Shown one piece after another: positions 4,852 through 58,408 of a stretch of 64,000 nt of DNA. Each line of letters starts with the position of its first letter. Within the stretch, counting starts at the first letter, position 1. The notes beneath the pieces are model-generated. The model saw only the letters and a program-made list of their open reading frames with translations, was not told the origin of the DNA and ran no database searches. Made by a program: the position numbers and the translations under genes. Source of the DNA: Salinirubrum litoreum (GTDB lineage: Archaea; Halobacteriota; Halobacteria; Halobacteriales; Haloferacaceae); NCBI RefSeq assembly GCF_020567425.1, contig NZ_JAJCVJ010000002.1, positions 1,343,068 to 1,407,067 of the forward strand. Direction: 5' to 3'.

Positions 4852-5002
4852 ACGAAACTGCGATGGGTCGGGAAACGGATATACACCCCATTCCGTTTCG
4901 TGCCGTTCGCACGACGTGAACGGTTTGAACGGTTCGTCTCCGTCTCTCTGGAACCTGACTGCTGTGCAGTGTGGGGCGGTCGAGCCGGGCGTGTGAGTCG
5001 GA

Positions 5003-5108
5003 TCGCCACCCCGAGGTAACTGTGTGTAACTCGGGTCGCCACCCCGAGGTAACTGTGTGTAACTCGGGTCGCCACCCCGAGGTAACTGTGTGTAACTCGG
5101 GTCGCCAG
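5003..5108. repeat. 33-bp perfect tandem repeat, three copies plus partial
   Basis: Units begin at 5003, 5036 and 5069 with TCGCCACCCCGAGGTAACTG and continue TGTGTAACTCGGG; a fourth, diverging copy begins at 5102. The spacing is exactly 33 bp and the three copies are identical. There are no spacers, so this is not a CRISPR. 33 is a multiple of three, and the reverse strand reads as an 11-residue repeat (SYLGVATRVTH) in an open frame. It lies in the 432-bp gap between the lipoprotein start (4851) and the ubaA stop (5284). Confidence 0.92.
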
Positions 5109-5111
5109 CCC

Positions 5112-5303
5112 AAGGGACGTGCGTGGTTCGAGAGGCGCTGGGGGGCGTTCACCCTCGTTGTCTGTGACCGACTCGACCGAACTCTCACCGATCGATTCGA
5201 TACGATCCGGATCGACCGAGAACTCCCACCGCTCGCCGGCGACACTCGACTCGACGAACCACTCGACAAGCCCCTCGCAGTCCTCACTCCCCCTCGATCG
5301 CAC
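5112..5303 (-). pseudogene. Possible coding remnant downstream of ubaA
   Basis: The reverse strand from GTG 5303 reads MRSRGSEDCEGLVEWFVESS and then an acidic stretch ending VTDNEGE at about 5155, with haloarchaeal codon and residue use. It then runs into the 33-bp repeats and stays open into the lipoprotein gene in another frame. No family was recognised and the start is uncertain. It may be a decayed gene end or a chance frame; confidence is low. Confidence 0.25.
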
Positions 5304-15116: not shown

Positions 15117-15217
15117 GGGGTGGTGGTTCGTGGCCCCGAGTCGTAGGTGTACGGGTACGGAGAGATCGGTGGATACGCCGGATAGAACACTGCCGAATCG
15201 GTCTTCGAGGTGGAGTC

Positions 15218-15470
15218 GGTCGAATCGGTCGCAGACGGCGAGCGGTGAAAGCCCCCGGTCTCTCGACCCGCCGCGTCTGGTGAGACCTCCGGTCTCGCCC
15301 TGTCACCGGCGCGGCGCGCCGGTTTCCAGCGGGACCTCCGGTCCCGCCCGGCTTTCGTCGTCGGGGCGGGATCGAGATTCTGGAGAGCGAAGCTCTCCAA
15401 CGTCTCGTTCACTTCGTTCACGAGACCGCCGGCCCCTTTCGGTCCCACCCGAGTGTGCGAACGCTCACGT
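15218..15470 (-). repeat. Dispersed hairpin element, copy A
   Basis: Read on the reverse strand it starts with GGGTGGGACCGAAAGGGGC (near 15450) and ends with GGGGGCTTTCACCGCTCG, then CGTCTGCGACCGATTCGAC. Between them lie perfect hairpins at about 15279-15299, 15305-15323, 15329-15347, 15382-15398 and 15402-15426. Most have direct counterparts in copy C (same arms, same order when read in element orientation). The arm pair GGTCTC/GAGACC next to the conserved ends closes the array. This copy lacks the 5' module (CCAGTCG...CTGGCGCG) seen in B, C and D. Confidence 0.85.
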
Positions 15471-15694: not shown

Positions 15695-15950
15695 CGCGCG
15701 CGTCGTGGTCGCGCGCGATGGAGGCGAACGCGGGCGGTGCGGAGAGCGTTCGCCGAGGCTGGGGCGGTCGAGGTGCGGTGCGGTCGCGGTTCCGCTGGGA
15801 GGTGCGCTACTAACAGTAGCGGTGCTGTCGCGGTCTGCTGTGCTGTTCGCGGTCGCTGTTGCCGTGCTGTCGTGATTCGCAGTGCTGTCGCTGTCTGCTG
15901 TGCCGTCGGAGTTGCGGTTCCAGTGGTGTCGCGGTCGTCTCGCTCAACCC
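15695..15950 (+). repeat. Palindrome plus low-complexity repeat module, copy 1
   Basis: A GC palindrome (GCGCGCG...CGCGCG near 15696-15718) is followed by GAGGCGAACGCGGGCGGTGC and GAGAGCG..CGAGGCTGGGG, then by a tract built from GCGGTGCTGTCGCGGT and TGCTGTGCTG words up to about 15930. The first 60 bp match a second copy at about 30428-30490 at most positions. It stops about 80 bp before the DUF2103 gene. Confidence 0.8.
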
Positions 15951-30010: not shown

Positions 30011-30082
30011 CTCTCTTACGATTTCGACTTGGTAGATGTGGGTGTAAAATCGGTCTGTGATGCGACCTCTGCTGAATCTGTC

Positions 30083-30354
30083 GTGGACAACGAGGGGTGA
30101 AAGCCCCCGGTCTCTCGACCCTCCGGGACTCCCCTGCGCGCTTCCTTCACGAGGGCGCGTCGCGTTGCTCCGCGCCCTCGTTCAGTCTAGTGCTTGAGTC
30201 GTCCGGGAGGGATCGAGAGACCGGCCCCTTTCAGTCCCACCCGGCGATTTCGCGGGGACGCATGCAACTCTCGGTGGACCAGTCGCTTTCAGCGTGAGCG
30301 CCTCCCTGAAACCGTCGGCGCGAGCTAAACTCGCGCCAGCCCACTCGACTGGTA
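30083..30354 (-). repeat. Dispersed hairpin element, copy D
   Basis: On the reverse strand it reads CCAGTCGAGTGGGCTGGCGC, a hairpin GGCGCGAG/CTCGCGCC (30319-30339), the middle module GGGAGGCGCTCACGCTGAAA, then GGGTGGGACTGAAAGGGGCC. A long stem closes the core (GGTCTCTCGA and TCGAGAGACC arms, continuing GTCCGGGAGG), and it ends GGGGGCTTTCACCCCTCG. Inside, one large hairpin ACGAGGGCGCG/CGCGCCCTCGT spans 30149-30181. The arms differ from those of copy C yet pair equally well. Confidence 0.88.
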
Positions 30355-30399: not shown

Positions 30400-30705
30400 G
30401 CGGATGGCGCGCGAGGAACGCGCGAGGGAGGCAGACGCGGGCGGTGCGGAGAGCGTCTGTCGAGGCTGGGGAGGTTCGAGGTGCGGTGCTGTCGCGGTGG
30501 CGGTTGCTGTGCTGTGGCGGTATCGGTTGTGGTCGAATAGTCCGTGTGTACCGGATCGAGTAGCGGTGCTGTCGCGGTCGCGGTCTGCGGTGCTGTGCGG
30601 TCGTCTCGTCGGTGTGCTAGCAATCGTAGCGGTGCCGGTGCTGTGGCGGTCTACGTTACCGAGACACTCGCCGTCGCAGTCGCTGTCACGGTCTCGTCCG
30701 GAGTA
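30400..30705 (+). repeat. Palindrome plus low-complexity repeat module, copy 2
   Basis: It begins with a hairpin (GCGCGCGAGGAACGCGCG near 30406-30423), then GAGGCAGACGCGGGCGGTGC and GAGAGCG..CGAGGCTGGGG (about 30428-30472). A long tract of GCGGTGCTGTCGCGGT-type words follows, extending to about 30705. The first 60 bp align with copy 1 at 15721. As with copy 1, it lies shortly before a plus-strand gene. Confidence 0.8.
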
Positions 30706-52685: not shown

Positions 52686-54494
52686 TTACTCGTCGGCCGA
52701 GACCGGTTCGGGGCCGAAGGGGTTCGCGTTGTCCATGTTGTGGCGGCACTGGACGGCAGCCACGTCGAACCGGAAGCCGGCGCTGTCGGTCTGGACGACG
52801 TTGATGAGCCCGTCGTTGTCGAGGTCGGCGGCGTCGAAGCCACCGAACTGGACGAGTTCGTCGGCCAGCGTCAGCATGCCGTCGTCGTCCTGGTCTTCGA
52901 GACCGGGGCGAGAGGAGGGCAGTTGGCTGAAGCCACGGCCGCTGGCCTCCCACGCTTCGGCGGACTGCTCGTTGTAGCACGGCAGGTACCAGTTGACCGC
53001 GATGCAGGTGACACCCGGGTCGACACAGGTCGCGTCGTCGCCGGTCGCGTCCACCCGGACGTTCTCGGTCTGGAGGGGGTTCAGCGCGATGCCGCCGTCG
53101 GCGGCGTCGAGGAAGCCCGCGAGCGAGCCACGGTACAGCAGGATATCGGGCAAGAGCGTCCGAGCGACCTCGGTGATGAGGCGTTCTAAGTCCTCCACGT
53201 CGGCGAAGAACAGGGTCTCGCCGGCGGCGTTCTCGTCGGCGATGTCCGCGAGGAACTGCTGGTCGCTGGGCGATTCGATCGCGGAACCGATGCCGACGGT
53301 CACGAGCGTGACGTCCGGAACCGCCGCGCGGAGGTCGTCGATGGCCGCGAGGACGGTGTTGCGGGCGCGATCGATCTCGGTCGCACCGGCCTCGGGCGAC
53401 CGGGTCGCACCCTCGAAGCCGTCGTCGTCGCTCGCGGACGGCTCGTCGTTGAACCGACCGTCGGTGAACAGCACGACGTACTTGTCGGTGTCCGCGACTG
53501 CGGGGTCGGCTTCGGCGTATAGCTGTCGTGCGGCGTCGAGGCCGTAGTACGCGCCGGTGCCGCCGGTGTAGTCGGCCGCTTCGAGGTCAGCGATCGCGGC
53601 CTCGAAGTCGCTCTCGGAGTTCGTCAGGCTGGAGGTGCGTCGCTCGGCAACGAGCGGGCGGTCGCCGTAGCTGACGAGGCCGAGGTAGTTGTCGCCGAGG
53701 TCGTCGGTCGCGCCGTCCGGGTTGAACACCTCGAGCAGGTTCCGCAGGCCCTGTGCCTGTGCGGTCTGTCGCGCGGGGGTCATCGAGCCGGAGCGGTCCG
53801 AGACGAAGACGGCCGAGACGCCCTGGCCGCCGTCACGCAGGTTGTTGCAGTTCGTGTCGTACCACGCCTCGACGTAGACGAAGTCGTCGAGTTCACCGGC
53901 CGCATCGCCGGCGTCGCCGTTGGAATCCTCCGGTTCGTAGACGACGTTCTCGCCGTCGTCGGTGCTGACTGCCTTCAGCCACATGTACGCGGGGTTGTCA
54001 CAGGCGTGCAGCGAGAGCGTGAACTCGCCTTCGTCCTTCGGCTTCACGTCGTCGAGGGTGAACATGACGCCCTCCGCGCCGTCGATCAGCCCGAGCGACT
54101 CGTCGTCGCCACAGCCGATAGCCTTCGTGAGTTCGCCCCAGTCGTCTTCGGTGTAGAGGTCGCCTTCCTCGACGTCGTCGCGCTCTGCGGCCTCACTCGT
54201 GCTGTAGCGCGGGTTCGGCACTTCGTCCAGCACGTAGCGGTCGTCTTCGCCATCGCCGTCGAGGTCGGTGTCGGGGATCAGGCCTAACGAGTCGAACTCG
54301 GTCGCGCGGTTCCACGGGAGGTACGTCGCGCGGTAGTCGAGTTTGAGGTCGATCTTGCCCGCCTGCAGCGACGCGGAGACCTGTTCCTCGTCGCTGAAGA
54401 AGGCGGTCGTGCCGAGTCCAGCGCCTGCGGAGGCGATGCCGATTGTGCCGAGGCCCGCGAGGACCGAGCGGCGTGAGATGCTGTAGTCCGTCAT
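52686..54494 (-). CDS. Secreted vWA-domain protein with calcium-binding loops
   Basis: A 602-residue exported protein from ATG 54494. Its N-terminus (TDYSISRRSVLAGLGTIGIA, then SAGAGLGTTAFFSDEE) is a twin-Arg signal of the SipW/TasA-like haloarchaeal type. The von Willebrand A domain, about 225-420, has a MIDAS site at 233-237 (DRSGS), then VLFTDGRFN and VTLVTVGIGSAI. Calcium-type DxDxDG loops occur before it (DTDLDGDGEDDRY) and near the C-terminus (DQDDDGMLTLADE; DLDNDGLINVV), the last two spaced like a dockerin/EF-hand pair. Eight or more Cys residues suggest disulfides. A surface adhesion or cell-envelope protein; ligand unknown. Confidence 0.85.
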   Translation of the reverse strand: MTDYSISRRSVLAGLGTIGIASAGAGLGTTAFFSDEEQVSASLQAGKIDLKLDYRATYLPWNRATEFDSLGLIPDTDLDGDGEDDRYVLDEVPNPRYSTSEAAERDDVEEGDLYTEDDWGELTKAIGCGDDESLGLIDGAEGVMFTLDDVKPKDEGEFTLSLHACDNPAYMWLKAVSTDDGENVVYEPEDSNGDAGDAAGELDDFVYVEAWYDTNCNNLRDGGQGVSAVFVSDRSGSMTPARQTAQAQGLRNLLEVFNPDGATDDLGDNYLGLVSYGDRPLVAERRTSSLTNSESDFEAAIADLEAADYTGGTGAYYGLDAARQLYAEADPAVADTDKYVVLFTDGRFNDEPSASDDDGFEGATRSPEAGATEIDRARNTVLAAIDDLRAAVPDVTLVTVGIGSAIESPSDQQFLADIADENAAGETLFFADVEDLERLITEVARTLLPDILLYRGSLAGFLDAADGGIALNPLQTENVRVDATGDDATCVDPGVTCIAVNWYLPCYNEQSAEAWEASGRGFSQLPSSRPGLEDQDDDGMLTLADELVQFGGFDAADLDNDGLINVVQTDSAGFRFDVAAVQCRHNMDNANPFGPEPVSADE

Positions 54495-54700
54495 CACCCC
54501 TTCGCAGGCGACATATCGGTATAGGTATAGGTCGAGTGTCGGTAGACTAACCAGTCGGTAGAGACGGCTACGTACCGCTTAGATGCCTGGTAAGCAGTAC
54601 ATACTGGACGAGTTTGCCACGGACCACGCTGGCGACTCGGGTCGTGTCGCTCGCCCACGTCGTGTCGGTCGTCGCTTCCGGATCGGTCGCCGACGCCGAT

Positions 54701-55084
54701 TCAGGCCTCGTCGTCAACGACCCGGATCGAACTCCCGAGGTAGGTCGTCAGCACCCGCGAGGCGGTGTCGTCGCCGAACTGATCGACGTCCTCGGCGATG
54801 GCCGCTTTCAGCGCGTCGAGGTACGCCTCGTCGGTCGCCAGTTCCGAGAAGGTGACAGCGACGACCGGCACGCCCAGCAGTTCCTCGGCGCGGTCCCGGA
54901 GGTGTCGTTCGTCGGCCACCTCGCCGCGCCAGCAGTTGTCGCGGAAGAACAGCCACTCGTCGTCGGGATCGCCCGGTTCGACTGCCGGGACGCGCAGGAC
55001 CGTCTCGAACTCTGCGGGGGCGACCGACACCCCTCCCTCGGGTGCGAGACGGAACCGGACGCGGAAGACGTACTCGGCGTGCAT
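54701..55084 (-). CDS. LWR-salt-type haloarchaeal protein
   Basis: A 127-residue protein (MHAEYVFRVRFRLAPEGGVS). The conserved part PDDEWLFFRDNCWRGEVADE, then LLGVPVVAVTFSELATDEAY and LDALKAAIAEDVDQFGDD matches the haloarchaeal family annotated as LWR-salt protein; where most members have DNLWRGE, this one has DNCWRGE. The name reflects a motif and salt-loving hosts, not a function. No membrane or signal segment. Start ATG 55084. Confidence 0.78.
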   Translation of the reverse strand: MHAEYVFRVRFRLAPEGGVSVAPAEFETVLRVPAVEPGDPDDEWLFFRDNCWRGEVADERHLRDRAEELLGVPVVAVTFSELATDEAYLDALKAAIAEDVDQFGDDTASRVLTTYLGSSIRVVDDEA

Positions 55085-55217: not shown

Positions 55218-55538
55218 ATGTCGTGGTATCTGCTCCTGCTCGCGGGACTGTTCGAGATCGCGTGGGCGATCGGACTGGAGTACTCCGAGGGGTTCACCAG
55301 GCCGGTGCCGACCGTCGCCACCGGACTGGCGATGCTCGTCAGCGTGGTGTTGCTCGCGCGGGCGGTACAGGACCTCCCGGTCGGGACGGCCTACGCGGTC
55401 TGGACCGGGATCGGTGCGGTCGGGACCGCGACGCTCGGGGTCGTGCTGTTCGACGAACCGGCGACCCTGGTCCGAGCAGGATTTATCGGCCTGATCGTCG
55501 TCGGCATCGTCGGTCTGCACTCCGTCTCGGGCGCGTGA
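55218..55538 (+). CDS. sugE: Small multidrug resistance (SMR/EmrE-SugE) transporter
   Basis: A 106-residue protein from ATG 55218 with four membrane helices. The essential membrane-embedded Glu is in LLAGLFEIAWAIGLEYSEGF (residue 13); PVGTAYAVWTGIGAVGT and VLFDEPATLVRAGFIGLIVV are typical of SMR. The AWAIGLE motif leans to the SugE/Gdx subgroup (guanidinium exporter), but this cannot be shown here. It is a proton-coupled antiporter acting as a dimer. Confidence 0.88.
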   Translation: MSWYLLLLAGLFEIAWAIGLEYSEGFTRPVPTVATGLAMLVSVVLLARAVQDLPVGTAYAVWTGIGAVGTATLGVVLFDEPATLVRAGFIGLIVVGIVGLHSVSGA

Positions 55539-55583
55539 CTCGAAGACGACCGACTCTTGTATCGCTCGCCTGAATCGGGTGCC

Positions 55584-55766
55584 GTGCCCCGAAACTCCCC
55601 GCTCGCGGTCCTCCTCCTCGTCGTCCTCCTGATCGTCGTCCCACTGGCACTGGTGTTCTGGTTCCCACTCGCTGTCTTCCTGCTCGCAGTCGGTGGTGGA
55701 TACCTCCTCGTCCGGTGGTATCTCCGACGCCGACTCGAACGGGGACCGAGGGACCGAAGTACCTGA
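55584..55766 (+). CDS. Small membrane protein
   Basis: A 60-residue product from GTG 55584 (MPRNSPLAVLLLVVLLIVVP) with one long or two short membrane segments and a basic tail (YLRRRLERGPRDRST). It is 45 bp after the SMR gene on the same strand. Short and start uncertain; real coding is likely because of the strong hydrophobic pattern. Confidence 0.55.
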   Translation: MPRNSPLAVLLLVVLLIVVPLALVFWFPLAVFLLAVGGGYLLVRWYLRRRLERGPRDRST

Positions 55767-55778
55767 GAGACGTAGTCA

Positions 55779-55845
55779 GAACTCCGCGTTCACCAGTTCG
55801 GCGAGCCGAATGTCCTGATCGGAGATGCCGCCGACCTCGGGGTCG
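55779..55845 (-). repeat. Detached second copy of the pterin dehydratase 3' end
   Basis: On the reverse strand 55779-55845 encodes GGISDQDIRLAELVNAEF with a stop, nearly the same as the last residues of the dehydratase gene (GGISDQDVRLAELVNAEF at 56439-56500). The two DNA copies share about 60 bp with a handful of mismatches, in the same orientation, and enclose the hicBA pair. The copy has no reading frame upstream that makes sense as a gene. Confidence 0.88.
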
Positions 55846-55879
55846 TCACCGCGTTGCGGTCTGAGGCAGATTGTCGCTG

Positions 55880-55913
55880 GATACTTATCCCGTTCCGCCC
55901 GTACTCGTAATCG
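55880..55913 (+). promoter_or_regulatory. Promoter of the hicBA pair
   Basis: GGATACTTATCCC (55879-55891) is a TATA box about 25-30 nt before ATG 55914, so the message is leaderless or nearly so. The box is itself a partial palindrome (GGATACTTATCC), which would suit antitoxin binding. Confidence 0.5.
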
Positions 55914-56183
55914 ATGGCCAGCACCTCCCGAGACGCCGACGACCACACCGACGAAATTCGGCTGTGGCCCGAGGACGACTGGTGGATCGCCAGACACGTC
56001 GAGACAAGCGTCACCACACAGGGAGAGTCGCGCGAGTCGGCACTCTCGAATCTCGACGAGGCAGTCGCGCTCCACAGGGGAGAGATCGGTCGTGAACCGA
56101 CCGACGACGAACTCCGGGCGGCCGGAATCGACCCCGAAGACAACGAGACGGGGACGCAGGCCCCACCTGACGTGCTGGAGTAG
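55914..56183 (+). CDS. hicB: HicB-like antitoxin
   Basis: An 89-residue protein (MASTSRDADDHTDEIRLWPE). The partially degraded RNase-H-like HicB fold is visible: DDWWIARHVETSVTTQGESR, then ESALSNLDEAVALHRGE and a tail with EIGREPTDDELRAAGI. It neutralises the HicA RNA-cleaving toxin encoded by the next gene. Gene order is antitoxin-toxin, the reverse of the E. coli hicAB order, with no gap (stop 56183, next ATG 56184). Confidence 0.85.
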   Translation: MASTSRDADDHTDEIRLWPEDDWWIARHVETSVTTQGESRESALSNLDEAVALHRGEIGREPTDDELRAAGIDPEDNETGTQAPPDVLE

Positions 56184-56435
56184 ATGGCCCGACGAACGTT
56201 CTCGGGTCTCGAAGTCGTCAAAGTACTCGTGAACGTCGGTGGATTCGAGTGGCGTCGAACGACCGGGGATCACGCACAACTGCACTACGAACACCCGACG
56301 AACGACACCGACCGCCGGCAGGTGACAGTCCCCCTCCACGACGAGTTACGAACTGGAACACTTCGAGAAATCGCCGATAGTGCTGGCGCGAACGACTTCG
56401 GCGCCTTCTGCGACTGGATAGACAGTAACAGCTGA
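56184..56435 (+). CDS. hicA: HicA-like mRNA interferase toxin
   Basis: An 83-residue protein (MARRTFSGLEVVKVLVNVGG). It has the HicA double-stranded RNA-binding-like fold: a first helix with SGLEVVKVLVNVGGFEWRRT, then the catalytic His in TGDHAQLHYEH, RRQVTVPLHDELRTGTLREI (basic strand and helix). HicA cleaves mRNA to halt growth when HicB is lost. It ends three bases before the pterin dehydratase stop (convergent). Confidence 0.88.
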   Translation: MARRTFSGLEVVKVLVNVGGFEWRRTTGDHAQLHYEHPTNDTDRRQVTVPLHDELRTGTLREIADSAGANDFGAFCDWIDSNS

Positions 56436-56438
56436 CGA

Positions 56439-56714
56439 TCAGAACTCGGCGTTCACCAGTTCGGCGAGTCGCACGTCCTGATCGGAGATGCCGCCAGCCT
56501 CGTGGTCGGTGAAGCGCACTTCGACCTTCTTGTAGTGGATGCGGATCTCGGGGTGGTGCCACTCCTCTTCTGCGATCTCCCCGACCGTCGTGGCGAACGA
56601 CACGCCGTCGAGGTAGTCGTCGAACTCGTAGATGCGGACGATCTCGTCGTCCTCGCGCTCCCAGTCCTCGGGCAGTTGCGATTCGATCTCCTCGTCGGAC
56701 AGTAGTTCACCCAT
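56439..56714 (-). CDS. 4a-hydroxytetrahydrobiopterin dehydratase (pterin carbinolamine dehydratase)
   Basis: A 91-residue protein from ATG 56714 (MGELLSDEEIESQLPEDWER). The active site HHPEIRIHYKKVEVRFTDHE (His-His and the second His) is characteristic. Then comes AGGISDQDVRLAELVNAEF. The family dehydrates 4a-hydroxytetrahydropterin after aromatic hydroxylation and can act in pterin recycling; in archaea its partner is not known. The 3' end of this gene is duplicated beyond hicBA (55779-55845). Confidence 0.9.
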   Translation of the reverse strand: MGELLSDEEIESQLPEDWEREDDEIVRIYEFDDYLDGVSFATTVGEIAEEEWHHPEIRIHYKKVEVRFTDHEAGGISDQDVRLAELVNAEF

Positions 56715-56766: not shown

Positions 56767-57573
56767 TCACCCGACGAGACCGAAGACGAGCGCCACCGCA
56801 CCGAGCACCCCGGCGACCGCGCCGGCGACGATCCGGACCGTCGCCAGCGACCGATCCTCGACCAACTCGGCTTCGGACTTGTCGGAGATGAGAAACAGTG
56901 GCTCCTCGCCGGCCGCGTCGGTGGGAAGCTTCTGGATCAGCATATTCCGGACGTTGCCACCCCAGACGTGTTCGTCTTCGGGCTTCTTCTGGACCGTCCC
57001 GTAGACGTACACCTGCTCGCCCGGTCGCACGAGTCGCTGGGTGTACCGCCGGTCGCCCTCCTGTGTCCCCCAGTCGAGTGCCGCGATCAGCGGGCGATCC
57101 GGCTGACCGGGTGTGTCGGCACGGGCGATGAACGCCTGGACGTGATCGGGTTGTGGGTCCGTGCTCCCGACTTCGATGGTCTGCCGGTCGCTCCAGTCGA
57201 TCTCCAGTGTCGCGCCTTGGGGCCGGACGAGCACCTCGCCGGAGTCGTCCTCGACGAGGAACGGGACGCCGTCGACACCCTCGCCTTTCGACCACCAGCG
57301 CCCGCCGTCGTCGTCTTCGTCCCACTCTTCGACCTCCCACTCGGCGACGAGGCAGTCCTCGCCGGTGAACGGGGCAGGTGCGGTGCCGTGTTCCTCGGTC
57401 GGTTTGGCGGTGCCCGTGATCTCCGCGGGACCTTCGGTGAGTGTCGAGATTTGGCTGGTGGCCGTCGACTCCATGACCTCGCGCTGTCGTTTGCGAGTCC
57501 GACCGGTGTAGAGGAGCCACGCGCCGAGTACCGAGAGGAGGAGACCGGCGACGAGGAAGACGGGGTTAACCAT
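56767..57573 (-). CDS. GIDE-domain membrane protein
   Basis: A 268-residue protein with an N-terminal membrane helix (PVFLVAGLLLSVLGAWLLYT) and a C-terminal one (TVRIVAGAVAGVLGAVALVF). Between them, the beta-rich domain (AEITGTAKPTEEHGTAPAPF, then TGEDCLVAEWEVEEW, PFLVEDDSGEVLVRPQGATL, VRPGEQVYVYGTVQKK) is the GIDE fold known from mitochondrial E3 ligase MUL1, here without the RING finger. In prokaryotes the function is unknown. Its start overlaps the PIN gene end by eight bases. Confidence 0.8.
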   Translation of the reverse strand: MVNPVFLVAGLLLSVLGAWLLYTGRTRKRQREVMESTATSQISTLTEGPAEITGTAKPTEEHGTAPAPFTGEDCLVAEWEVEEWDEDDDGGRWWSKGEGVDGVPFLVEDDSGEVLVRPQGATLEIDWSDRQTIEVGSTDPQPDHVQAFIARADTPGQPDRPLIAALDWGTQEGDRRYTQRLVRPGEQVYVYGTVQKKPEDEHVWGGNVRNMLIQKLPTDAAGEEPLFLISDKSEAELVEDRSLATVRIVAGAVAGVLGAVALVFGLVG

Positions 57574-58105
57574 CGTTCTCTACCCCCGATGGTTCCGTGT
57601 CATCCGACCCTGCCGCCAACTTGAACAGTCGCCGAGCGTACCGATAGATCGGCGCACCGAGCCAGTCGCGTTCGTCTGCGATTGTCTGTAGTGCGGCTCT
57701 CGCTTGGGCCTCTGTAAGAACGCTCCTTCGTACCGACGCTCGAAGCAAAATCGGCGAGAGTGCGACATCGGCATCTACGAGCGCTTGCAACTCCGGCAGT
57801 GCTCGGAAGTCATCTGTAACGAGAAAGGTTGCTCCGTGATTTCGGACTGCCGCAACACAACTCGCTTCACCTGCGTCGATTCGACTCGTTACGAGCGACT
57901 CGTCGGTACTGTCGACGACCGTCATCTCGGACACCACATCGAGCGCGACAGCCGCCGCCCGACCGTGTCTGTCGTCGTACTCAGCTGTCTCTTCTAACTC
58001 TGTGACTATCGTCTTCGTCGTTCCGAGGTCGAACTCGCGGGCGATTGGATGGAGAACGTCGCCGACACCCAACGAGACGAACGCACTCGTGTCTACGACG
58101 ATCAT
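57566..58105 (-). CDS. PIN-domain protein (probable VapC-like toxin)
   Basis: A 179-residue protein (MIVVDTSAFVSLGVGDVLHP). The PIN metal-binding acids are Asp5 in VVDTSAFVSL, Glu in IDAGEASCVAA, and Asp in ATFLVTDDFRALPELQAL. A longer C-terminal helical part than usual VapC (about 130) follows (RRSVLTEAQARAALQTIA and on). It directly follows a ribbon-helix-helix gene (stop TAG 58106-58108, ATG 58105-58103), so it is the toxin partner of a TA pair. The RNA target is unknown. Confidence 0.83.
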   Translation of the reverse strand: MIVVDTSAFVSLGVGDVLHPIAREFDLGTTKTIVTELEETAEYDDRHGRAAAVALDVVSEMTVVDSTDESLVTSRIDAGEASCVAAVRNHGATFLVTDDFRALPELQALVDADVALSPILLRASVRRSVLTEAQARAALQTIADERDWLGAPIYRYARRLFKLAAGSDDTEPSGVENDG

Positions 58106-58408
58106 CTACTGATCGGCGAGTTCGTCGGCCAGTCGCTCCCCCTCGTCGAGTAGCTCCTTCGAGGCGCGGACCGACTCGGCGTCTTGCCGACCGATTATCG
58201 CAACGAGTGCGTCGAAGCCAATCGTTCCGTCGAGGTAGAGTTCGACTACAGACTCTCGGAACTGTTCGTCGGACTCCTTCTCGTCGAGATACTGCTGGAG
58301 TGCTTCGGTCAGGATCTCGGTTCGGTTCTTGTGTGTCACCTCGGCGGCGATGTCAGCCTGTTCGACCAGCTTCTCGGGTAATCGGAAGTTGACTCGTTTG
58401 CTACTCAT
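58106..58408 (-). CDS. Ribbon-helix-helix antitoxin
   Basis: A 100-residue protein (MSSKRVNFRLPEKLVEQADI). The RHH strand VNFRLPEKLVEQADIAAEV and HKNRTEILTEALQQYLDEKE form the DNA-binding part, and the second half (VVELYLDGTIGFDALVAIIG) likely wraps the PIN partner. Antitoxins of this type repress their own promoter. A clear operator lies at the start (see the site at 58409-58432). Confidence 0.85.
   Translation of the reverse strand: MSSKRVNFRLPEKLVEQADIAAEVTHKNRTEILTEALQQYLDEKESDEQFRESVVELYLDGTIGFDALVAIIGRQDAESVRASKELLDEGERLADELADQ

Follow-up and report, generated by a model that had tools for sequence, protein, structure and literature searches.

In the haloarchaeon Salinirubrum litoreum, a unit of about 590 bp carrying hicBA was probably inserted near the 3' end of phs, with the duplication of about 60-70 bp of the gene end. 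As the insertion event duplicated the end of the gene, phs would have kept an intact end, and the second copy would have been displaced beyond the unit, where it sits and is now decaying. The window analyzed here is the whole stretch of 64,000 nucleotides, and the relevant features, in its coordinates, are as follows.

54701..55084, minus strand: LWR-salt protein gene (NF033910, E 3.5e-46), the ancestral downstream neighbor of phs
55220..55538, plus strand: SMR-like small transporter gene, read from the sequence, left of the displaced end
55557..55766, plus strand: orf69, coding for a small hydrophobic protein, left of the displaced end and not beside phs in relatives
55776..55845, minus strand: displaced (pseudo) copy of the phs 3' terminus, covering roughly the final 19-23 codons and the stop, matching the phs end at 63/70 positions
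55846..56438, plus strand: inserted unit of 593 bp comprising a putative promoter region, hicB, hicA and 3 bp, delimited by its junctions and not beside phs in relatives
55846..55913, plus strand: hicB leader with a TATA-like stretch, GGATACTTAT, a putative promoter by sequence inspection
55914..56183, plus strand: hicB-like antitoxin, 89 aa, DUF7387 (PF24113, E 8e-30)
56184..56435, plus strand: hicA toxin, 83 aa (PF07927, E 2e-11)
56439..56508, minus strand: intact phs 3' end, the second repeat copy, starting exactly at the stop codon
56439..56714, minus strand: phs, pterin-4a-carbinolamine dehydratase, 91 aa, intact (Pterin_4a, PF01329)

The preliminary description had proposed that a duplicated end of the dehydratase gene flanks the hicBA pair, and the duplication is real: a repeat search recovers 55776-55845 and 56439-56508 as direct repeats of 70 nt with 63/70 identical positions (90%) at a spacing of 663, and comparison of the window with itself assigns the pair an E of 3.9e-18. 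The repeats bracket hicBA and its putative promoter exactly; therefore, hicBA is the cargo of the duplication. The best-conserved block corresponds to the last 19 codons plus the stop (about 57 nt), with weaker similarity 5' thereof, at the hicB-proximal edge. The displaced copy translates as GGISDQDIRLAELVNAEF followed by a stop, against GGISDQDVRLAELVNAEF and a stop in the gene itself, and it has a proline where phs and every aligned relative have a histidine. A whole-genome search, which the preliminary description had called for, found only these two copies of the 70-nt repeat and no third, the next-best match being 29 nt within an unrelated gene. The displaced copy is closest to the phs of its own genome, no relative exceeding 54/70; hence, it arose in this lineage. 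A foreign source of the displaced end was accordingly rejected within the sampled relatives. The genome has one complete copy of phs, so a second full paralog, which had been named as a finding that would speak against insertion, was likewise rejected as its origin.

Within the unit, the hicB stop is immediately followed by the hicA ATG, and the HicA domain thus adjoins a HicB-like partner with which it could be cotranscribed, the two constituting a predicted HicAB type II toxin-antitoxin pair. A CTTAT motif occurs at the equivalent position of the leader in most related hicBA loci (upstream 60 bp, 38 loci). On the other side, the stops of hicA and phs lie 3 bp apart. The 593 bp hold hicB and hicA alone and are devoid of a transposase, integrase or recombinase, in agreement with the earlier observation that the unit has no integrase.

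Comparison of the region 3' of the dehydratase gene in relatives points to an originally uninterrupted site. In 25 of 29 family loci (L034-L062), the LWR-salt gene follows phs after 3-115 bp, with one gene end each, and is itself usually followed by a HAD phosphatase gene; in the remaining 4 of 29, the LWR-salt gene is absent beside phs. hicBA lies beside phs in none of the 29 examined relatives, nor was it found adjoining phs among the other 147 family genomes searched. The comparison genomes are all outside this genus, and the empty site of phs is accordingly defined at the level of synteny. These comparisons support the proposal of the preliminary description that the phs 3' end received hicBA as a very small unit devoid of a recombinase. 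Its account that only hicB, hicA and a promoter lie between the repeats holds, but it missed that the distance from phs to the LWR-salt gene in the window is 1354 bp in total, made up of hicBA, the displaced end, orf69 and the SMR-like gene. Since the last two lie between the displaced end and the ancestral neighbor, at least one further event is needed. The SMR assignment is a reading of the sequence, with no Pfam match at E 1e-3, and SMR homologs in relatives occur at other loci. The candidate pairing of orf69 and the SMR-like gene as co-travelers was rejected, since searches of relatives did not place orf69 next to an SMR gene. That the unit belongs to a halovirus or plasmid was also rejected: hicBA alone finds matches, on nine plasmids of haloarchaea and one virus, and the hicBA-phs arrangement is in no halovirus or plasmid record searched.

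Several other features of the window deserve mention in their own right. A gene for a von Willebrand factor A domain protein (52686-54497) lies between the LWR-salt and HAD phosphatase genes, which adjoin in most relatives, and constitutes a second interruption of this gene group. On the other side, 1 kb from phs, a gene for an RHH protein (PF01402) is followed by one for a PIN-like protein (57566-58408), likely a further toxin-antitoxin pair. Further direct repeats, 77-89% identical, occur at 15712-15790 and 30419-30498, at 15196-15278 and 30048-30130, and, as a tandem pair, at 4991-5059 and 5057-5125.

Orthologs of hicBA are spread over many loci, and the arrangement recurs around them at other genes. 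The 3' end of ligA is duplicated around hicBA in three genomes (G394, 158 bp; G471, 179 bp; G301, 94 bp), the repeat block of G471 beginning exactly at the ligA stop; that of an SDR gene in two (G268, 45 bp; G328, 39 bp); and that of a gene for a 160-aa protein in one (G357, 138 bp). The units are about 580-640 bp long, start 50-100 bp before hicB and end 2-64 bp after hicA, with repeats of 39-179 bp. For ligA and the SDR gene, empty sites are available at the base level: the displaced end of G471 and its flank align with the corresponding ligA end and following DNA in G309, which lacks hicBA, and the displaced ends and flanks of G328 and G268 align with the congeneric G235 and G495. In all three, the displaced end runs directly into the ancestral downstream sequence, and the ligA and SDR cases are, as read from these alignments, single insertions with target duplication. 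Two ends around one hicBA would likewise be produced if an ordinary hicBA insertion were followed by a tandem duplication of the phs end plus hicBA and the loss of one hicBA copy. Such a course is most improbable, as it requires two events per locus at several loci and the continuity of the displaced end with ancestral downstream DNA in G471, G328 and G268 is what a single insertion predicts.

The geometry of an intact end, cargo and a displaced end also fits elements integrated at gene 3' ends, so that hicBA could be a non-autonomous or deleted integrative element served by a tyrosine recombinase in trans, with the repeats as attL and attR; certain other hicBA copies do reside in arrays with a conserved att-like repeat. 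We consider this highly unlikely for the loci at hand. The target genes (phs, ligA, the SDR gene and that for the 160-aa protein) are unrelated, the repeats share no common core and vary from 39 to 179 bp, the unit is without a recombinase, and searches of the window and of a sampled 400 kb of this genome did not recover the array repeat. There is thus no sign of the site-specific integration at a gene end that the preliminary description had entertained, because the targets are unrelated.

A third alternative, homology-facilitated illegitimate recombination, has more to commend it and is still unlikely. Here, a linear hicBA-carrying fragment from a relative would have entered via a homologous crossover within phs and an illegitimate join on the other side, making the intact end foreign and the displaced copy the original of the host. 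The process is documented in bacteria (PMC3240628), and it would account both for the 10-15% divergence between copies in several cases and for hicBA at ligA in several genera. The ligA locus of G471, set against the sister species G309, bears on it from both sides. The intact end differs from G309 at 5 sites, at 3/5 of which the displaced copy equals G309; however, the intact end matches the sister at 174/179 positions and the displaced copy at 163/179, making the latter the more diverged, and ligA remains 93-97% identical to the sister through the final bins, with no drop toward its 3' end. This single case favors, on alignment evidence, a genuine duplication of the target, the spare copy having drifted afterwards, rather than a replacement end of foreign origin, and the element-borne replacement end suggested in the preliminary description is disfavored in what is the sole testable case. 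The alteration of the displaced phs copy at the conserved histidine is, moreover, as decay predicts.

Other cargo also lies between duplicated gene ends, which the preliminary description had named as a finding that would support insertion. Duplicated ligA ends surround an RHH antitoxin (PF01402) and a RelE-like frame at L311 (G341:C3 near 99587). In the S. litoreum genome itself, outside the window, a sugar-nucleotide dehydrogenase gene has 115 bp of its end duplicated around an RHH/RelE-like pair (G000:C2:1446153-1447066). Both RelE-like frames have an early TGA; their name, like that of the dehydrogenase, comes from reading the sequence, and the RelE-like frame has no Pfam match. Further cases in this genome were sought in about 464 kb.

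Close flanking direct repeats are enriched around hicBA in general. Within 300 bp on either side, they occur at 16 of 108 distinct hicBA units (15%), compared with 26 of 4256 pseudo-units (0.6%) set in 40 stretches drawn from these genomes (p 6e-16). The sample has one genome per species and some loci are of shared ancestry; grouping by shared flanks yields 66 clusters, 10 of them with a repeat, and with one representative per cluster p is about 4e-7. The cut-off (score >=20) was set after the first results, and the excess persists at all thresholds from 16 to 50. The gene-end status of the repeats was decided by eye from translations. About 85% of hicBA units have no flanking repeat, and it is absent also at ligA in G255 and G416; therefore, other routes or erosion must be assumed. 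Flanking repeats other than gene ends are conserved array spacers (L273, L288, L289, L274-L276), intergenic repeats (L081, L242) and IS- or MITE-like ends. In L242 (G469) and L081 (G052), non-coding repeats of 140-200 bp, at least three within 2 kb, separate hicBA and neighboring toxin-antitoxin pairs. Short IS- or MITE-like ends (beginning CACTTCGCGGCCCCGAT and CGTGCTGAATACAG) flank hicBA in L277 (G183), L278 (G158), L230 (G043) and L075 (G021).

The arrays are integron-like in organization, as seen at 9488-15970 of L289 (G208:C12:132100-152000) and likewise in L288, L294, L276, L273, L275 and L303. A repeat of about 57 bp, CACCGAGCCTACTAGTAG-N4-TCGCCCGGTAGTGTTCCGGGCGTACAT, with a CGCCCGG/CCGGGCG stem, recurs in a single orientation between cassettes, many of which are toxin-antitoxin pairs (hicBA, DUF433+DUF5615, UPF0175+PIN and others). 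At the array edge is a repeat variant with only the right half in common. No obvious recombinase is present within about 5 kb upstream, and viral contigs, plasmids and phages yielded no match to the repeat.

Among known systems, the closest parallel is provided by restriction-modification units, which are known to insert with long, variable target duplications on the order of 100 bp (PMC3874152; PMC1643837; PMC3031569, citing Nobusato 2000 and Furuta 2010). As there, a small addictive pair without a recombinase is bracketed by long, variable target repeats where a relative has a single-copy target, and the loci have in common with these units each structural feature that was examined. Unlike there, the cargo is a type II toxin-antitoxin pair (hicBA, elsewhere RHH/RelE-like) rather than restriction-modification genes, the units occur in haloarchaea, and time and again the duplicated stretch is a gene's 3' end, with the gene itself left intact. 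The hicBA loci are thus best read as archaeal instances of the insertion with long target duplication described for restriction-modification genes, the cargo in this case being toxin-antitoxin pairs; we found no earlier report of such insertion for toxin-antitoxin pairs in the open-access literature searched, of which our coverage was partial. The archaeal integrative elements at gene or tRNA 3' ends are alike in having an intact and a displaced end, whereas the hicBA loci are without an integrase and share neither a fixed target nor a fixed repeat core. Homology-facilitated illegitimate recombination (PMC3240628) similarly places foreign DNA beside a homologous gene with one illegitimate junction, but predicts the foreign intact end disfavored in G471. 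The IS605-type elements, PATEs and MITEs of haloarchaea (PMC3119063) likewise include short mobile DNA that has no transposase, in the same archaeal group; however, PATEs have near-terminal palindromes and no target duplication, and MITEs have terminal inverted repeats, and neither such palindromes nor such inverted repeats are found at the ends of the hicBA unit in the window.

What is observed is the duplicated gene end, the sites empty in relatives, and the return of the pattern at gene ends unrelated to one another and with two toxin-antitoxin families. As to how this came about, the duplication probably resulted from captured DNA being joined into a break whose ends were staggered, with an offset of tens of bases up to about 200, and then filled in. 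Gene 3' ends would be favored because duplication there repairs the gene. Such insertions may persist mainly with addictive cargo: precise deletion of the insert through the direct repeats would otherwise follow, and leftover toxin would poison any cell that lost the pair. Repeat-mediated deletions are known in haloarchaea (PMC3119063).

The recurrence at other gene ends and in other haloarchaea suggests that these tiny units spread without a mobility enzyme of their own. How toxin-antitoxin pairs move without a carrying mobile element is an old question. A wider proposal, which we advance tentatively and consider just short of an even bet, is that haloarchaeal toxin-antitoxin pairs are recombinase-free minimal mobile units whose insertion with long target duplication has hit the 3' ends of unrelated genes over and over, with addiction retaining the otherwise unstable duplications. 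The loci have the appearance of dated scars, each with an empty site, an insert whose ends can be seen and a displaced copy of the gene end usable as a clock. Through them, a mechanism familiar from restriction-modification genes would be extended to archaea and to toxin-antitoxin cargo, and the idea that addiction preserves unstable duplications becomes directly testable.
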